Positions 29,450-35,356 of a stretch of 64,000 bases of DNA are shown here, piece after piece. Numbering within the stretch: the stretch's first letter is position 1; every line of letters begins with the position of its first letter. The position numbers and the translations under genes are program-made. Under the pieces are notes generated by a model that saw only the letters and a list, made by a program, of their open reading frames with translations, was not told the origin of the DNA and did not search any database. The DNA is from Beijerinckiaceae bacterium (lineage in GTDB: Bacteria; Pseudomonadota; Alphaproteobacteria; Rhizobiales; Beijerinckiaceae), in the NCBI GenBank assembly GCA_030684835.1, contig JAUXWZ010000020.1:1-64000 (forward strand), given 5' to 3'.

Positions 29450-30481
29450 TTACTGCGTGATGATGCGCTTTGCACGCGCCACGGTCTCGGCCGGCGTTGT
29501 GAAAACGCGCGTCACTAGGTCCTGCACCTTCTGCCCGCTCGTCGGGTTGATGTCGATCCGCGCCTTCTCCGCGTCGGCCTTAAACTCAGGGTCAGCCATT
29601 GTCTTGTCGAAGGCTTCCCGGAGCAGCTTTAGCACGGGCTCGGGCACGCCGGGAGGCGCGACGAACGGACGGCCAAAGACCTGCTGGCTTACGACCAGTT
29701 CAGCCGCTGCCTTGTCGACCGGGTTTGTGATGAACTTCCACATGTCGGGAACACCGAGATCGACAAGCTCGCGCTCGGGGTCAAGTCCCGTCTGGATGAG
29801 GATGTTCAGCTTCTTGGACTTGATCCAGTCTCCGCGCTGAGCTTTCAGGCTGGACCAGTCAAGGCCGCACATGCCGTCAACTTCGCCACGCTCCATGGCA
29901 AGAAAGATGTCGGCCGTGCCCTTGTAGCCGCTCACGACCTCAAACTGGGCGCCAGCGATGTGATTGAGCATGTAAGCATAGTCGCGCGTAGAGCCGCCCG
30001 CCGCGCTTGCGCCTACAATGGTCTTGCGATTGCGCACGTCGTCGAATGTTTTCGTCTGCGAATTTTCAAACGTGATGCACACGCGCGTGCCGCTGTCCGC
30101 GCTCCCCAAGTAGGAGAACTTGGTCACGTCGAACAAATTTTTCGGCTTGGGATCAAGGATTGGTCCGATGATCACACCGGGAAAAATGATTCCGAACGTT
30201 GTGCCATCCCTTGGCGCCGTGTTGAAGATTGCGGCGGCCGCAGTGGCGCTTCCCGCGCCTGGCTGGTTGCGCACCACGATGGTCGGCTGGCCGGGAAGGT
30301 GCTTCACCATGTGGCGGACGGTCAGACGTCCATACGTGTCGTATCCGCCCGCTGCGTCACTGCCGACAATCATTGTCAGGGTCTTGCCGGCAAAGTGATC
30401 GGACTGCGCGGAAACGGGCGCGCTGAGAGCGCCGCTCGCGAGAAGCGCCCCGCAAAAAGCGGCAAGCTTTGCATTTCGCAT
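29450..30481 (-). CDS. Bug/TctC-type periplasmic solute receptor 1
   Basis: Tripartite-tricarboxylate-transporter receptor family (Bug). A signal peptide (LAAFCGALLASGALSAPVSAQ) precedes the binding domain. Family landmarks are TMIVGSDAAGGYDTYGRL, HLPGQPTIVVRNQPGAGSATAA, NTAPRDGTTFGI and the C-terminal half from GRPFVAPPGVPEPVL. The start has GGAGGG upstream. Bug proteins bind small carboxylates with high affinity, sometimes for signalling. No tctA or tctB gene is in this window. It is one of five such genes between 29450 and 47640. Confidence 0.87.
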   Translation of the reverse strand: MRNAKLAAFCGALLASGALSAPVSAQSDHFAGKTLTMIVGSDAAGGYDTYGRLTVRHMVKHLPGQPTIVVRNQPGAGSATAAAAIFNTAPRDGTTFGIIFPGVIIGPILDPKPKNLFDVTKFSYLGSADSGTRVCITFENSQTKTFDDVRNRKTIVGASAAGGSTRDYAYMLNHIAGAQFEVVSGYKGTADIFLAMERGEVDGMCGLDWSSLKAQRGDWIKSKKLNILIQTGLDPERELVDLGVPDMWKFITNPVDKAAAELVVSQQVFGRPFVAPPGVPEPVLKLLREAFDKTMADPEFKADAEKARIDINPTSGQKVQDLVTRVFTTPAETVARAKRIITQ

Positions 30482-30657
30482 GAATCGTTCCCTCCGTTTG
30501 TTTTGACGGCATCGCTATAGGCGACCTGAGCGCCGCCGACAATCCGTACAAATCTCGAACGAAATAGGGCTCGCCGGACGAGGTCTGTAGCCCTGTTTTA
30601 CCGAATAAATCCTCTCACCGCACAGCCTGCGCGCCTGCAAGGCTCGGCGCGCTGGCG

Positions 30658-30665
30658 AGGCGGGC
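30658..30665 (+). repeat. Target-site duplication, left copy
   Basis: AGGCGGGC immediately before the left inverted repeat; the same eight bases follow the right one at 34030-34037. Confidence 0.9.
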
Positions 30666-30686
30666 GGTAGTGTCTCAGTTTGAAAT
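30666..30686 (+). repeat. Left terminal inverted repeat
   Basis: 21 bases, an exact reverse complement of 34009-34029; similarity stops sharply after the AAAT. Confidence 0.93.
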
Positions 30687-30758
30687 CTGACCCTCTTGAC
30701 CAACGCTCGCGCCATCCCGATCTCCCGTGTATGCTTGGCGGAAAGCAGGGAGTATTGA

Positions 30759-30977
30759 ATGACGCGCGACGATCTCAAGGCGAAGATACAGGCGATGGCG
30801 CCCGGACAATACGCATCAATACCCTACGATCTCTACAGCGACCTGTTTCCGCCGGGTGAGCCAGATGAACCTGCGCGCGACGCTTGTTACAATTTTGCGA
30901 AGAGCCTTGGCTGTAGGGTCGAAAACAAGCCGGAAATGCAGGAAGTGTGGATCGTAAAAGATGCCAACCGGACCTAA
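30759..30977 (+). CDS. Small passenger protein of unknown function
   Basis: A 72-residue soluble protein of mixed charge with two Cys (DACYNFAKSLGCRVE). I do not recognise a family. The ATG at 30759 has AGCAGGGAG upstream, and its last 17 bases overlap the start of the next gene, which suggests coupled translation. It is the first gene inside the transposon. Confidence 0.6.
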   Translation: MTRDDLKAKIQAMAPGQYASIPYDLYSDLFPPGEPDEPARDACYNFAKSLGCRVENKPEMQEVWIVKDANRT

Positions 30978-31191
30978 AGGCGAGAAGCGCCCCGCTGACG
31001 TGATTGGCAACGCCGTGAAGGTGATGCGGATCGCCACTGGCGAGGAATCAGACGCACCCAGCGACGACGGCAAGAACAAGGCCGCGCAGGAGCTTGGCCG
31101 GAAGGGCGGAGCAGCGCGGGCTAAGACCATCAGCCCCGAACGTCGCGCGGAGATCGCCAGGAAGGCGGCGGCCAAACGCTGGGGAAGATAG
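30961..31191 (+). CDS. Small basic passenger protein with GRKGGAARA motif
   Basis: 76 residues, strongly basic toward the C-terminus (AQELGRKGGAARAKTISPER, then AEIARKAAAKRW). The GRKGGxARA and RRAEIARKAA pattern occurs in small proteins usually annotated as histone-like or RNA-binding, and the P63C protein encoded next opens with a related motif (SKGGLARAEKLTAEE). Nucleic-acid binding is inferred from composition. It overlaps the preceding gene by 17 bases. Confidence 0.65.
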   Translation: MPTGPKGEKRPADVIGNAVKVMRIATGEESDAPSDDGKNKAAQELGRKGGAARAKTISPERRAEIARKAAAKRWGR

Positions 31192-31219
31192 CAAGCAGGT
31201 TCGCTTTTGTTCTGCATCT

Positions 31220-31244
31220 ATGCTTGCAATGTATTTGCAAGCAT
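31220..31244. promoter_or_regulatory. Perfect dyad upstream of the P63C gene
   Basis: ATGCTTGCAA and TTGCAAGCAT form a 10-bp perfect inverted repeat spaced by TGTAT. The half-site GCAAGCA occurs twice more nearby, at 31191-31197 and 31263-31269, giving four copies in 79 bases ahead of the gene at 31283. This looks like an operator array; no T-run follows, so it is less likely to be a terminator. Confidence 0.6.
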
Positions 31245-31282
31245 ACTAGTCCTATGAGGGTAGCAAGCATGGAGCGATTCCA

Positions 31283-32329
31283 ATGTCTGATAATCCTCAA
31301 AGCAAGGGCGGCCTAGCTCGCGCTGAAAAGCTCACGGCTGAAGAGAAGACTGCGATTGCATCAGGTGCTGCACGTGCGCGCTGGGAAGACCAGGCAAACT
31401 TAGCCAGCGTAGATTTTCCTGGCACGCTCAAACTCGGCAACGTGAGTATCCCTTGTGCCGTTCTAACTGACGGCACCCGCGTTTTATCAGAGAACGGGAT
31501 TGCAAACGCGCTTCTCGGCGGGCGTAGCGGTGCATCAAAAAGGAAAAAGAAAGCTGCTGGCGAGGCCGGGGCCCATTTGCCGCTTTTTGTGGCCCCGCGC
31601 CAACTAGAACCGTTCATAACCAATGAGTTAGTCGATGGGCCCCTAAAGCCCATCCGCTACGTAGAGGGACGCTCCGTCGTCGTTGGTTACGATGCCCGTA
31701 TCTTGCGCGCCGTGTGCGAAATATGGCTTAGCGCCCGAGCTGCCGGCGCGCTCCAAGAACAACAGCTCGACAAGGCACAGCGGGCCGAACTGTTAATGCG
31801 CTCTCTTGCCGACATCGGCATAGTTGCCCTTGTCGATGAAGCGACCGGGTATCAGGAATTTCGCGCCCGCGACGAACTCCAGCAAATTCTGGCCGCCTAC
31901 GTGTCGGAAGAGCTGCTCCCATGGGCGAAGCGGTTCCCAGACTCTTACTATCAACAGCTACACCGGGTCTGGGGATGGCCGTACAAGGCCGGCAACCACA
32001 AGCGAAATGCCTACATCGGCCGTCTCACCAATTGGCTTATCTACGAGCAACTGCCGCCCGGTGTGCTTGATGAACTGAGAAGCCGAAACCCCAAGGACCC
32101 TTCGACCGGCCGGCGCAAACGAACGCATCATGAGCATCTGACCGACGATATTGGACATCCAAATCTAGAAAAGCAGATAGGTGCAGTAACGACGCTCCTG
32201 AGAGCTACGCCTGCCGGAAAGCCGGGCTTCTTTAAGACACTTTTCAGAACGGCTTTCCCCACCGATCAGCCGGAGTTGTTTCCTGAATATGATCCGGGCG
32301 ACAAACCAAAGCTGGTCAAAAATGCTTGA
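31283..32329 (+). CDS. P63C-domain protein
   Basis: 348-residue soluble protein matching the P63C domain family of phage- and plasmid-borne proteins of unknown function. The N-terminal KGGLARAEKLTAEE motif is followed by a KilA/Bro-like core (AVLTDGTRVLSENGIANALLG) and the P63C hallmark ELLPWAKRFPDSYYQQLHRVWGW toward the C-terminus. The core suggests nucleic-acid binding but no activity is established. It ends 31 bases before the transposase start and is cargo or an accessory gene of the transposon. Confidence 0.75.
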   Translation: MSDNPQSKGGLARAEKLTAEEKTAIASGAARARWEDQANLASVDFPGTLKLGNVSIPCAVLTDGTRVLSENGIANALLGGRSGASKRKKKAAGEAGAHLPLFVAPRQLEPFITNELVDGPLKPIRYVEGRSVVVGYDARILRAVCEIWLSARAAGALQEQQLDKAQRAELLMRSLADIGIVALVDEATGYQEFRARDELQQILAAYVSEELLPWAKRFPDSYYQQLHRVWGWPYKAGNHKRNAYIGRLTNWLIYEQLPPGVLDELRSRNPKDPSTGRRKRTHHEHLTDDIGHPNLEKQIGAVTTLLRATPAGKPGFFKTLFRTAFPTDQPELFPEYDPGDKPKLVKNA

Positions 32330-32360
32330 CGCTAAGCAAAAAAGTTCATATAAAGGGGGC

Positions 32361-33236
32361 ATGAACAAGCTTCCTGTCGCCACACGCGCCCAAATCCTCT
32401 CGATGCTCTGCGAAGGCGCCTCGATGCGCTCGGCGTCGCGGCTGACAGACGCGAGCATCAACACCGTGTCGAAGCTTCTTGTGGACGCCGGTCGCTTCTG
32501 CGCTGGCTTTCATGACGACAAGGTGCGCGGTGTGAAGGCCAAGCGGGTTCAGGTTGATGAAATCTGGTCTTTCACGGGCGCGAAGCAAAAGAATGTCGCC
32601 GCGATGAGGGCGCCAGTTGACGGCGCTGGCGACACTTGGACATGGACCGCCATCGAAGCCGACACAAAACTGCTTGTTGGCCACTTTGTCGGCGGTCGTG
32701 ACGGCGAATGCGCTCAGTGGTTCATGGACGATCTAGCGTCACGCCTCGCAACCCGCGTCCAGCTTACGTCAGATGGCCACAAGGCATATCTGGAAGCCGT
32801 CGAAGGGGCCTTCGGCGCGGATGTAGACTATGCGATGCTCATCAAGCTCTATGGCGCTTCTCCTGAAAGCGCCAAGGGCCGCTATTCGCCAGCAGATTGC
32901 ACTGGGATCAAAAAGCAGCGTGTCGAAGGCTCGCCCGATCCGAAACATATCTCGACCTCGTATGTCGAGCGAGCAAACCTCACCATGCGGATGCATAACC
33001 GCCGGTTCACGCGCTTAACGAATGCGTTTTCAAAGAAGTTTGAGAACCACGCTCACATGGTCGCGATCTATGCCGTTTGGTACAATTGGATTCGCATTCA
33101 CAAGAGCCTTCGCGTAACGCCTGCGATGGCCGCGAATATCTCAACTCGGCTGTGGTCTTGGGCTGATATCGTGGAAATGATGGATGCTGCCGAGCCTGCC
33201 AAGAAACGCGGCCCGTACAAGAAACAAGTGGCTTAG
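32361..33236 (+). CDS. IS1-family-type DDE transposase
   Basis: 291-residue transposase. An N-terminal helix-turn-helix (RAQILSMLCEGASMRSASRL, then NTVSKLL) is followed by a DDE catalytic core with Asp in VQVDEIWSF, Asp in LTSDGHKAYL and Glu in STSYVERANL, then the basic tail KKRGPYKKQ. The single continuous frame differs from classic IS1 (InsAB' frameshift) and matches the long alphaproteobacterial IS1-like group. The ATG at 32361 is preceded by AAAGGGGG. It appears intact. Confidence 0.88.
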   Translation: MNKLPVATRAQILSMLCEGASMRSASRLTDASINTVSKLLVDAGRFCAGFHDDKVRGVKAKRVQVDEIWSFTGAKQKNVAAMRAPVDGAGDTWTWTAIEADTKLLVGHFVGGRDGECAQWFMDDLASRLATRVQLTSDGHKAYLEAVEGAFGADVDYAMLIKLYGASPESAKGRYSPADCTGIKKQRVEGSPDPKHISTSYVERANLTMRMHNRRFTRLTNAFSKKFENHAHMVAIYAVWYNWIRIHKSLRVTPAMAANISTRLWSWADIVEMMDAAEPAKKRGPYKKQVA

Positions 33237-33244
33237 AAAAGCGA

Positions 33245-33278
33245 AACCCCGCGAGGGCCGGGGGGCTGTCGCGGGGTT
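33245..33278 (+). terminator. Inverted repeat after the transposase gene
   Basis: AACCCCGCGA pairs with TCGCGGGGTT around a G-rich loop just after the transposase stop. The T-run is minimal, so it may terminate weakly or block read-through into the Abi gene. Confidence 0.55.
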
Positions 33279-33379
33279 CTATCCGTCCGAAACCGTATGC
33301 GAAGCAGTGACGAATTTCGGCTCACCAGGAACAGGTACACACTAACGGGCAATTCATCAAGAGAGAGTAAAGCAGGAAA

Positions 33380-34009
33380 ATGGTCCTAGCTGTGATAGAA
33401 ACCCTCTCAACAGAGAGGTTTGCCACGTACCTGAAAGCCGCCGGCTACAATCGTGACCGCGCCATGCGGCTGTACGTATGGAATGCTCATGTCGGGGAAG
33501 CGTTCCATACCCCCATCCAGACGGTAGAAGTCGCACTTCGAAATGGCGTCAACAAGGCGCTCCGAAGCACTTTCGGAGATTACTGGTGGGCAGACGAAAA
33601 ATATCGAAAAACGATTGATCGGGAGAGACATTCAGACCTTGATACAGTCGAGAAGCGGATTAGGAAGCGCGGCCTGACCATGGTGAACGGGCAGGTGGTG
33701 GCCGGGCTCTCGTTTGGGTTTTGGGTAGGCATGTTGCAACCGAGATACAACCCCGCACTGTGGGGCGCTCAGCTGCGGCCCTGCTTTGTCAAGCTTCCCG
33801 CAACGGAAACGCGAGACTCTTTGTTCAAATCCGCGAGCGCAATTGCAGGGCTGCGAAATCGCATATCGCATCATGAGCCAATCATTGCTCGTGATCTTTC
33901 CGCAGACTTCGCGGAGATCATGAAGCTGCTTGGGTGGATATGTCCGGACACCCGCGAATGGGTTCGCCCGCACTGTCGAGTTCCAGAACTCATCCGCTCC
34001 AAACCATAA
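33380..34009 (+). CDS. Abi-family (Abi_2) abortive-infection-like protein
   Basis: 209-residue protein of the Abi_2 (AbiD/AbiF) family. Recognisable parts are the N-terminal helices with YNRDRAMRLYVWNA and TPIQTVEVALRNGVNKAL, then GLSFGFWVGMLQP, and the HEPN-type motif LRNRISHHEPI (Arg-x4-His), which in HEPN toxins is the RNase site. Family members are often phage-defence toxins. Its stop codon shares a base with the right inverted repeat, so it is the last cargo gene. Defence function here is inference. Confidence 0.8.
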   Translation: MVLAVIETLSTERFATYLKAAGYNRDRAMRLYVWNAHVGEAFHTPIQTVEVALRNGVNKALRSTFGDYWWADEKYRKTIDRERHSDLDTVEKRIRKRGLTMVNGQVVAGLSFGFWVGMLQPRYNPALWGAQLRPCFVKLPATETRDSLFKSASAIAGLRNRISHHEPIIARDLSADFAEIMKLLGWICPDTREWVRPHCRVPELIRSKP

Positions 34010-34029
34010 TTTCAAACTGAGACACTACC
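34009..34029 (-). repeat. Right terminal inverted repeat
   Basis: Exact reverse complement of 30666-30686, beginning at the last base of the Abi-gene stop codon. Confidence 0.93.
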
Positions 34030-34037
34030 AGGCGGGC
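34030..34037 (+). repeat. Target-site duplication, right copy
   Basis: AGGCGGGC, identical to the eight bases at 30658-30665. Confidence 0.9.
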
Positions 34038-34102
34038 CCACGCCTTGACAAGCGGCGCCTCGGGGCGGATGTTCAAAAAAAATATCTTCTGGAGGAAACG
34101 CG

Positions 34103-35356
34103 ATGCTGTCCCACAAGGACAACGAATTGCTGACGCGCGTTGGCGCTGGCGCACCGATGGGCGATTTGATGCGCCGCTACTGGATACCGGCCGCGTTCTC
34201 TAGTCAGATCGACAAGCCTGACTCGCCCCCCATCCGCGTTCGCCTGCTTGGCGAGAACCTCGTTCTCTTTCGCGACTCCGAGGGCCGGATCGGCCTTCTA
34301 AGCGAATACTGCCCACACCGCACAGCGTCCCTTTTTTACGGGCGTAACGAAGAAGGCGGCTTGCGATGCGTTTATCACGGCGTGAAGTTCGATGTGAACG
34401 GCGCCTGTCTTGACGTTCCGTGCGTGCCGCCGGGCAGTAACGTGAAGGACAAGATCAAGGCCGTTTCCTATCCGTGCATTGAACGGGGCGATCTTGTGTG
34501 GACTTACATGGGTCCGCCCGAGCACAAACCGGAGTTTCCCGATCTCGAATGGGCGCACGTGCCAGCGTCGCATCGCTTCGTCACGCGCCATGTTCAGGAA
34601 TGCAATTGGTTGCAGGGGTTGGAAGGCGGCTTCGATGCGGCCCATCTCTCGTTCTTGCACAGCGGGCTCGTCGACATGCGAAAGGGGCGCACCGATCATG
34701 ATCGGCGCATCGTTCCCTCTGCTTACGAAGTGTTGCCACTCGACTTTGGATTTGTCGTCGCGGGTGGGCGCGAGCTTCCTAACGGAAACATGTCATGGCA
34801 CGTCGACGTCATGCTGTTCCCGTTTCACAAAATCATTCCATCGGTGCCGCTTGGCGCACACATCTGGGCGCCCATCGACGATGAAAATACGATGCTCTAC
34901 AGCATCAACTTCAATCCCGAGCGCCCGCTCAACGATGAAGAGATGGAACGCGAATTCGCGTGGCGCGGCATTCATACAAAGAACCTGCCGGGTTCGGACT
35001 ATGCCGAAGCCAACAAGAGCAACGATTACCTGATAGATCGCGACTTGCAGGCAAGCGGCCGTTCCTACACGGGCGTCATCGGGCTCGGCGTTCAAGATTG
35101 TGCGATGCAAGAGTCCATGGGCCCCATTGCCGATCGCTCGAAGGAATTTCTCTTTGTTGGCGATGCGGGCATCGTGCGCATTCGCAGATTGCTTTTGCAG
35201 GCGTTGCGCGATCTTGCTGACGGCAAGCCGCTCATCGGGATGGACCCGCGCGGCTATCGCGTGCGCTCGTTCAGGTGCGAAGCGCCGCCTGACCGCTCGC
35301 TCGAAGACATTTGTCGTGAGAGACTGTCGGTCGAACCGGCGGTCGCTGCCGAATAA
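34103..35356 (+). CDS. Rieske non-heme iron oxygenase, alpha subunit
   Basis: Aromatic-ring-hydroxylating-type oxygenase, phthalate-dioxygenase-like. The N-terminal Rieske centre is CPHRTASLF, then CVYHGVKFD (CxH, CxxH). The mononuclear iron site is in GGFDAAHLSFLH (Asp, His, His). It is 417 residues; TGGAGG precedes the ATG. No ferredoxin or reductase gene is adjacent, so electrons must come from elsewhere. It starts an apparent operon with a ThDP enzyme and a Bug receptor, only 66 bases from the end of the transposon. The substrate is unknown, perhaps an aromatic or cyclic carboxylate. Confidence 0.87.
   Translation: MLSHKDNELLTRVGAGAPMGDLMRRYWIPAAFSSQIDKPDSPPIRVRLLGENLVLFRDSEGRIGLLSEYCPHRTASLFYGRNEEGGLRCVYHGVKFDVNGACLDVPCVPPGSNVKDKIKAVSYPCIERGDLVWTYMGPPEHKPEFPDLEWAHVPASHRFVTRHVQECNWLQGLEGGFDAAHLSFLHSGLVDMRKGRTDHDRRIVPSAYEVLPLDFGFVVAGGRELPNGNMSWHVDVMLFPFHKIIPSVPLGAHIWAPIDDENTMLYSINFNPERPLNDEEMEREFAWRGIHTKNLPGSDYAEANKSNDYLIDRDLQASGRSYTGVIGLGVQDCAMQESMGPIADRSKEFLFVGDAGIVRIRRLLLQALRDLADGKPLIGMDPRGYRVRSFRCEAPPDRSLEDICRERLSVEPAVAAE

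Follow-up and report, generated by a model that had tools for sequence, protein, structure and literature searches.

A complete IS1-like unit transposon with probable defence-type cargo in a Beijerinckiaceae bacterium, and its alphaproteobacterial relatives

The window analysed here is a stretch of 64,000 nucleotides from a Beijerinckiaceae bacterium (assembly GCA_030684835.1, a 4.9-Mb draft genome; contig JAUXWZ010000020.1, forward strand, positions 1-64,000). It contains a 3,364-bp element at 30666-34029 with five open reading frames (ORFs) on the + strand, one of which encodes a transposase resembling that of the IS1 family of insertion sequences (IS). The locus raises the question of whether this element is a plain IS1 enclosing chance neighbours or a transposon with a constant core and exchangeable cargo. 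That 30666-34029 is a unit transposon is as good as certain, and its membership of a modular family is well supported, by sequence comparison, in two samples. We regard as probable the whole reading: the element is an autonomous unit transposon from a divergent IS1 branch that carries cargo, with swappable defence or addiction genes and ORF2 as its regulator.

Ends, insertion site and transposase

The boundaries and the transposase region show the following features:

30658..30665, no strand: left copy of the 8-bp target duplication AGGCGGGC, read from the sequence; a single octamer stands at the aligned empty site
30666..30686, + strand: left terminal inverted repeat GGTAGTGTCTCAGTTTGAAAT; related elements have the same kind of ends
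30666..30752, + strand: conserved left-end block, the repeat plus about 65 bp, from pairwise DNA alignments and an alignment of 94 left ends
32361..33236, + strand: IS1-like DDE transposase, 291 amino acids, single frame, D66/D138/E203, from Pfam, NCBIfam and alignments
33245..33278, + strand: inverted repeat 3' of the transposase gene, a terminator-like stem, from a repeat search
34009..34029, - strand: right terminal inverted repeat, from a repeat search
34030..34037, no strand: right copy of the target duplication AGGCGGGC, read from the sequence

The 21-nt terminal repeats (30666-30686 and 34009-34029) are 100% complementary and form the longest perfect pair listed in 30400-34300. The initial annotation had described a complete IS1-like transposon with cargo, bounded by perfect 21-bp repeats and an 8-bp duplication, and its limits are right to the base. 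The remaining anatomy agrees with it as well: five genes on the same strand, a transposase in one open frame, a size more than four times that of a plain IS1 (3,364 bp against the 768 bp of IS1A of Escherichia coli K-12, 4.4 times), and cargo packed to the edge, where the last base of the ORF5 stop codon TAA (34007-34009) is the first base of the right repeat.

An empty site is found in one allele of the same genus (genome G041, contig C131). The joined flanks align unbroken, with 300 of 351 columns identical (85%) and 26 gap columns, and beyond the junction the similarity goes on at 87% over 1,666 columns and 92% over 672, one on each side. The annotation's expectation of a single octamer holds here, though not to the letter: the octamer AGGGAGGC, present once, has two differences from AGGCGGGC, and the 18 bp directly to its left are absent. 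Different boundaries at an empty site, which the annotation named as refuting, are not what this one allele shows.

The transposase start was placed at a conserved MNKL at 32361, the listed open frame beginning at 32289. The protein matches PF03400 with 31.4 bits (Pfam cut-off 24.1) and the NCBIfam IS1 model NF033558 with 58.3 bits, below the cut-off of 100. Profile alignment (hhalign) with InsB of K-12 gives an E value of 4.3e-6 and a probability of 87, with D66, D138 and E203 aligned to the acidic residues of InsB; these three residues are invariant in the first seven transposases aligned. Residues 6-45 align over 40 columns with the helix-turn-helix of K-12 InsA (E 7.3e-5, a modest probability of 62). 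These matches, together with the complete ends and the duplication, bear out the IS1-like assignment, and several plasmid relatives carry the annotation 'IS1 family transposase'. Against the assignment, besides the NCBIfam score, stands a six-frame search of the element's own genome with PF03400, which gave no match at E 1e-3.

IS1 elements have ends starting with GG and target duplications of 8-9 bp; the classical IS1 is compact, with an insA/insB frameshift, and single-frame members are known. The ends of the window element start with GG and flank an 8-bp duplication, as in IS1, both being features that the search for relatives itself required. By these comparisons the transposase is a single-frame, longer, divergent IS1-type protein. 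It is placed in a divergent branch since its NCBIfam IS1 score is under the cut-off, and apart from classical IS1 because of the 3,364-bp length and the single frame in place of the insA/insB frameshift organisation. With IS1A of K-12 it shares a homologous DDE domain, an InsA-like helix-turn-helix, GG ends and the 8-bp duplication, but IS1A has overlapping insA and insB in place of one 291-residue frame, and the present element has additional sequence separating the second D from the E, a length of 3.4 kb, four non-transposase genes including a second core gene, and paired palindromes. The related family IS1595 also makes 8-bp duplications and has passenger-bearing subgroups; membership of it was rejected, no IS1595 transposase domain being among the Pfam matches.

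In the proposed mechanism the DDE transposase would act on the 21-bp ends, insert the whole 3.4-kb unit and duplicate 8 bp. Insertion as one unit is supported by the anatomy and by the related empty site, and also by a Sphingopyxis genome, described below, in which each of two identical copies has a duplication of its own.

The family, its slots and the turnover of cargo

A transposase scan of the genome collection with seven queries gave at least 560 confirmed relatives, of which the best 80 were taken. Adding the window itself, seven loci from neighbouring genomes, four from plasmids and one from a phage gives 93 transposase loci, three of them entered twice from two sources. Complete elements with 8-bp duplications are present at 79 of the 93 loci, and 77 of the duplications are exact; since flanks slid as a control gave some pair of ends and duplication in 19 of 279 trials, the pairing is beyond chance. 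The 79 target octamers are all different strings (three being second readings of one site). Removal of four duplicates (three loci each read from two sources, and L101, which exactly repeats another element of its own genome) and of L092, an apparent 9.1-kb pair rejected before counting, leaves a non-redundant set of 74. These range from 2,125 to 4,251 bp and none is of bare-IS size; the shortest, L108, contains one doubtful ORF besides ORF2 and the transposase gene. The second sample comprises 36 transposase loci with 25 complete elements, four already known and 21 new, the shortest of 2,633 bp. One of the 21 is the outer reading (5.6 kb) of a tandem pair and was left out of the 94-element sets used for left ends and palindromes. 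The loci without a complete element (14 of 93 and 11 of 36) include some cut by contig ends, and L224-L228, taken for the end motif and without a full transposase, were left uncounted.

The whole transposase, or part of it, was detected in 47 of 397 genomes of the host's order (E up to 1e-40) and in 30 of 385 genomes of its class, Alphaproteobacteria (E up to 1e-60); in a sample of the phylum, all 11 positive genomes among 299 are Alphaproteobacteria. Sphingopyxis sp. PET50 contains two identical copies of 3,316 bp (L101 and L102) with the duplications CGGAGCCG and CAATGCGC, which is the strongest sign that the unit has recently moved as a whole. Transposase relatives are also seen on viral contigs, one with 53% identity (L246, IMG/VR 3300045257_000224) and one with 33% in the 321-kb Brevundimonas phage vB_BpoS-Gurke (L058, ON529850). 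L246 holds the transposase, ORF2 and a P63C gene, so that such units can ride phage or prophage DNA.

Twelve pairwise DNA comparisons, mostly between close elements, show four conserved blocks: the left end (about 86 bp); about 150-240 bp of ORF2; a block that starts about 20-50 bp before the transposase gene and stops near the end of that gene; and the right repeat. Over 47 main-subtype elements, the mean information per base stays at 0.03-0.16 bits ahead of ORF2 (0.16 in the last 10 bases), reaches 1.26 bits over the first ten bases of ORF2 and falls to 0.04-0.09 after its stop; relative to the transposase gene, it is 0.03-0.10 bits from -120 to -51 and 0.56-0.71 over the last 40 upstream bases. 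Because conservation steps at the start of ORF2 and before the transposase, the borders of three slots can be drawn. Slot A, which contains ORF1, ends at the start codon of ORF2; slot B runs from ORF2 to the promoter of the transposase gene; and slot C, at least 150 bp long in 39 of 74 elements, separates the transposase gene from the right repeat. The main cargo slot is:

31192..32322, no strand: variable slot B, from pairwise alignments and the information profile

The left end, ORF2, the unit of operator, promoter and transposase gene, and the right end form the backbone, and comparison of elements shows that the genes in the slots have been replaced in the course of evolution.

By cargo cluster, the 74 elements are divided into PD-lambda-2B-type and RmrA-type (13 each), P63C (10), AAA (seven), SDH-type protease (six), C8/C9 (five), C17 and C18 (three each), C22 (two) and others (12). 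The cargo clusters searched were matched again in 16 of the 21 second-sample rows. Mapped on a maximum-likelihood tree of the transposase (74 rows), cargo type requires 46 changes, the shuffled mean being 51.4 and the minimum 9; it is only weakly tied to the tree. Close relatives carry different cargo in L106 and L115, in L078 and L085, and in L097 and L113.

Some results weigh against this modular reading. In the other subtype (20 elements) the rise at the start of ORF2 is weaker, from 0.13 to 0.68 bits and then 0.19-0.35, and the last 50 bases before the transposase show 0.13-0.39 bits. The cargo of 12 of the 74 elements is outside the nine named types, five of the 21 second-sample rows match no searched cargo cluster, and ORF2 was not found in three of those 21 elements. 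Cargo also clusters slightly on the tree, a count as low being reached in 4 of 200 shuffles, chiefly through PD-lambda-2 (8 changes against 12.2), and the count of changes treats 'other' cargo as one state.

How cargo is exchanged is evenly balanced. It is as likely as not that cargo turns over by ordinary homologous recombination, between co-resident elements that have ORF2 and transposase in common, rather than by fresh capture. In six of 13 close pairs ORF2 and the transposase disagree in synonymous divergence (Fisher p < 0.05 without correction, on pairs that are not independent), a pattern suggestive of recombination among elements; four of these six pairs are among PD-lambda-2 elements that share a cargo label. 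L097 and L113, with close transposases and different cargo, are in one genome. On the other side, P63C is found in the same slot in both orientations (three forward, seven reverse), which suggests repeated capture or inversion.

The wider form of the reading, a compact IS1-derived cassette platform that spreads and reshuffles small anti-phage and toxin-antitoxin modules across Alphaproteobacteria, its fixed parts, a repressing ORF2 and an operator-controlled transposase included, serving three exchangeable slots, and unexplained cargo such as P63C being new defence genes, is offered tentatively, at somewhat less than an even chance on the comparisons made.

ORF2 and the paired palindromes

The constant accessory gene and the putative regulatory sites are:

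30961..31191, + strand: ORF2, 76 amino acids, conserved core gene, predicted all-helical, putative regulator, from family comparison
30732..30747, no strand: palindrome TGCTTGGCGGAAAGCA, putative operator of the ORF1-ORF2 operon, from a motif search
32323..32338, no strand: palindrome TGCTTGACGCTAAGCA over the -35 box of the transposase gene, second putative operator, from a motif search
32326..32354, + strand: putative transposase promoter, TTGACG-17 nt-TATAAA, read from the sequence

ORF2 is present in 73 of the 74 non-redundant elements and in 18 of the 21 of the second sample. Its conserved parts read KRPADVIGxAV...IATGE and GGxARAxxLTPExRxEIAxKAAxxRW. The ratio of nonsynonymous to synonymous divergence (dN/dS) indicates purifying selection: across 14 selected pairs it is 0.02-0.30 for ORF2, dS being saturated in some of them, and the transposase shows 0.04-0.14. 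A genome search found ORF2 in 38 of 47 genomes with the transposase versus one of the 20 listed genomes without it; this lone ORF2 has two stops inside and is near an end-like site and a palindrome. The model of ORF2 shows three helices (predicted local distance difference test, pLDDT, 82; predicted template-modelling score, pTM, 0.36). Its C-terminal motif, GGxARAxx...IAxxAAxxRW, also begins P63C proteins, including ORF3, and the search model of ORF2 matches 31289-31393. Antisense ORFs opposite ORF2 (clusters C1 and C2) are artefacts of ORF calling and were dropped.

The motif TGCTTnnCGnnAAGCA, with up to two mismatches, is present at the left end in 58 of 94 elements, 5' of the transposase gene in 55, mostly at -39 or -40, and at both sites in 50. 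Control windows contain it in 10 of 1,606 cases. In the element's own genome the exact palindrome is found three times, twice inside the element. Across 21 genomes with the transposase it is found at 34 places versus 11 for the reversed pattern, and across 19 genomes without it at eight versus six. Among the 67 elements with typed ORF2, both sites are present in 36 of 46 of the PAD subtype and in one of 21 of the PRD subtype.

Since the paired palindromes of the main lineage follow the PAD subtype, ORF2 may be a dedicated repressor of both promoters in that lineage, a specific, testable guess from sequence patterns. Most likely, ORF2 would bind the palindrome before its own operon and the one over the -35 box of the transposase gene, and so hold transposition down. 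In the PRD lineage, regulation may instead be of another kind or be exerted by the transposase. There, an end-like AAACTGAC stands before the transposase gene in 11 of the 21 rows printed (L035, L038, L039, L055, L075, L076, L089, L104, L110, L122 and L135), and it may reflect transposase autoregulation. AAACTGAC resembles the inner half of the ends of these elements and is about 50 bp before the transposase start.

The repressor role has points against it. The palindrome motif was defined on the same elements, so the control gives a background and no independent proof; 18 of the 21 PRD-subtype elements are without the palindrome at both sites; and ORF2 has no family match in Pfam or NCBIfam and no fold match in the PDB. 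A different role is possible, if rather doubtful: ORF2 as a transposition accessory, such as an end-binding, target-choice or host-factor adaptor protein, with the palindrome bound by the transposase or a host protein. The lack of a recognised DNA-binding family or fold agrees with such a role, and AAACTGAC suits transposase autoregulation. The palindrome is nearly element-specific in its own genome (two of three copies), however, which makes a general host regulator ill-suited, and it follows the ORF2 subtype, although subtype and transposase lineage largely coincide. The family also offers a testable model in which a companion repressor would silence the transposase during cargo swaps.

Cargo functions and relation to known elements

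The cargo genes of the window element are:

30759..30977, + strand: ORF1, 72 amino acids, slot A, from the ORF list and family searches
31283..32329, + strand: ORF3, 348 amino acids, P63C-domain protein (PF10546, E 2e-33), slot B, with the GGxARAxx...RW motif at its N-terminus
33380..34009, + strand: ORF5, 209 amino acids, HEPN/Abi-type, like PD-T4-5 (PADLOC), slot C

ORF1 has no family match in Pfam, NCBIfam or PADLOC. ORF5 matches the PADLOC model of PD-T4-5 over residues 5-174 (E 6.3e-19) and Abi_2 with 25.3 bits, just below the cut-off of 25.6. It holds RNRISHH, read from the sequence; the HEPN motif has the form RX4-6H. By these matches the HEPN gene ORF5 would be the defence-type cargo here, which probably includes the P63C gene ORF3. 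L080 has the same pair, its P63C gene lying in slot B and its HEPN/Abi gene in slot C. Relatives of P63C are common in viral contigs (576 confirmed), and the transposase is in one of the 80 such loci fetched, L246. Because its relatives are frequent in viral contigs and one accompanies the transposase and ORF2, P63C is a candidate defence or phage-regulator gene. The initial annotation held that cargo conserved without the repeats and transposase would speak against a transposon; this independence is partly true of P63C and is not damaging because it is expected of cargo.

Searches of 180 cargo ORFs of at least 80 amino acids, with ORF2 and the antisense ORFs left out, gave Pfam matches to HTH_3 (27), Peptidase_M78 (25), P63C (10), NYN (seven), SDH protease (six), HigB (four) and PemK (two) and, among the families listed, Abi_2 (at least three) and Fic, HicB and MazE (at least one each). 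PADLOC matches comprise RmrA (lowest E 3e-191), PD-Lambda-2_B (7 of 90 and 8 of 90), RmrT, PD-T4-5 and HEC-09. Single representatives match RmrA, the antitoxin of RosmerTA, at E 1.2e-119, its toxin RmrT at E 3e-36 and PD-Lambda-2_B (an Xre-peptidase fusion) at E 1.2e-33, and the ATPase of L083 matches HEC-04. An RmrT-cluster gene is present in five of the 13 RmrA-type elements; among the 13 PD-lambda-2-type elements, four have a gene of the HigB-like toxin cluster and all have a C3-cluster gene. Among the 25 families listed per library, 90 flanking control ORFs show no recurrent cargo family: Pfam gives transporters and housekeeping families, and PADLOC gives scattered single matches (DpdF, BrxH and others) with no RmrA or PD-Lambda-2.

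The defence reading of the cargo is weakened by several negatives. ORF3 has no defence-model match in PADLOC, and the best PDB match of the P63C fold (pLDDT 74, pTM 0.48), DdrC, is not significant at E 0.06. Representatives of C3, the third PD-lambda-2 component, and of the HigB-like C12 are without a PADLOC match, and those of AAA, SDH, C9 and C17 without a convincing one. PADLOC has a loose threshold: as many as 70 of its families are matched by the 90 control ORFs too, with one ORF each in the 25 listed and helicase-type families included.

Since the recurrent cargo consists of toxin-antitoxin or anti-phage-type genes, the element would most likely persist through phage resistance of the host or through addiction, and defence or addiction is the likely benefit of the cargo, judged by its family matches. 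That the cargo is purely selfish addiction, punishing loss of the transposon and giving the host no phage resistance, is unlikely: HigB, PemK/MazF, HicB, Fic and MazE matches suit it, but the two readings are not exclusive, and the modules met most often match systems for which anti-phage activity is reported, namely RosmerTA (PMC10440598) and PD-lambda-2 and PD-T4-5 (PMC9519451). Very improbable within the two samples, and as a one-off capture ruled out by the family of complete elements with ORF2, is a plain IS1-like element with neighbouring genes picked up by chance: ORF1, without a relative at E 1e-4 in 20 loci, the 12 elements outside the named types and L108 with its doubtful ORF would suit it, but no element among the 79 and 25 complete ones is of bare-IS size, ORF2 is nearly constant, the slot borders of the main lineage are at fixed landmarks, the same cargo families return in the second sample, and L080 repeats the P63C and HEPN/Abi arrangement.

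Transporter ISs (tIS) are IS derivatives with passenger genes between the ends of a single-transposase element (PMC9330008). The present family shares with them an IS-type transposase and ends around passenger genes, with one-unit movement read from sequence, but has no complete member of bare-IS size and shows a conserved accessory gene and fixed slots. Tn7-like transposons carry anti-phage and toxin-antitoxin cargo (PMC8649781); in contrast to them, the elements described here have a single transposase gene, measure about 2-5 kb, use varied targets of 8 bp and hold one to a few cargo genes. Transposons of the Tn3 family have toxin-antitoxin genes as passengers (PMC9330008), and differ from the present elements, which have an 8-bp duplication and no resolvase-type family among the cargo families listed (25 of 47 and 25 of 41). 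RosmerTA, PD-lambda-2 and PD-T4-5 are recurrent cargo types of this IS1-like family, ORF5 matching the last; PD-T4-5 was found on a plasmid, and the portions consulted of PMC9519451 and PMC10440598 mention no carriage by IS1-like elements. No description of this IS1 branch was found in the literature searched, which includes parts of PMC9330008, PMC4447125, PMC9519451, PMC10440598 and PMC8649781, ISfinder being outside the search. It is apparently an undescribed, widespread alphaproteobacterial family with a fixed mobility core and interchangeable defence-like cargo: passenger-carrying ISs and Tn7-like defence cargo are already known, and the present family combines a fixed ORF2, three slots and paired palindromes in an IS1 branch. 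Small anti-phage systems move fast between genomes, often on a vehicle that stays obscure, transposon borders being difficult to locate. With base-exact borders, wide spread and one to a few cargo genes per unit, the slots lend themselves to a guilt-by-location search for new defence genes.

The element is flanked on the left by a gene on the - strand (29450-30481), presumably encoding a tripartite-tricarboxylate-type binding protein, and on the right by a gene on the + strand (34103-35356), which we take to encode a Rieske-type oxygenase, both names being read from the translations alone. Between the element end and the start of the oxygenase gene there are 73 bp (34030-34103), so the insertion may affect the promoter of this gene. 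The same genome contains a solo end with one mismatch and without a partner (G000:C6:26151-26171), read as a remnant; the 12 kb around it gave no significant match to the backbone genes (transposase and ORF2). L211 (G426:C13, 4056-9653) apparently consists of two direct tandem copies of a 2,795-bp element, with the same octamer TGTGGTTC between and flanking them. Non-autonomous elements resembling miniature inverted-repeat transposable elements are seen in L047 (2252-2497, 246 bp), L048 (2402-2599, 198 bp) and L043 (2811-3655, 845 bp); without a transposase match, all three have the same kind of ends and exact 8-bp duplications.

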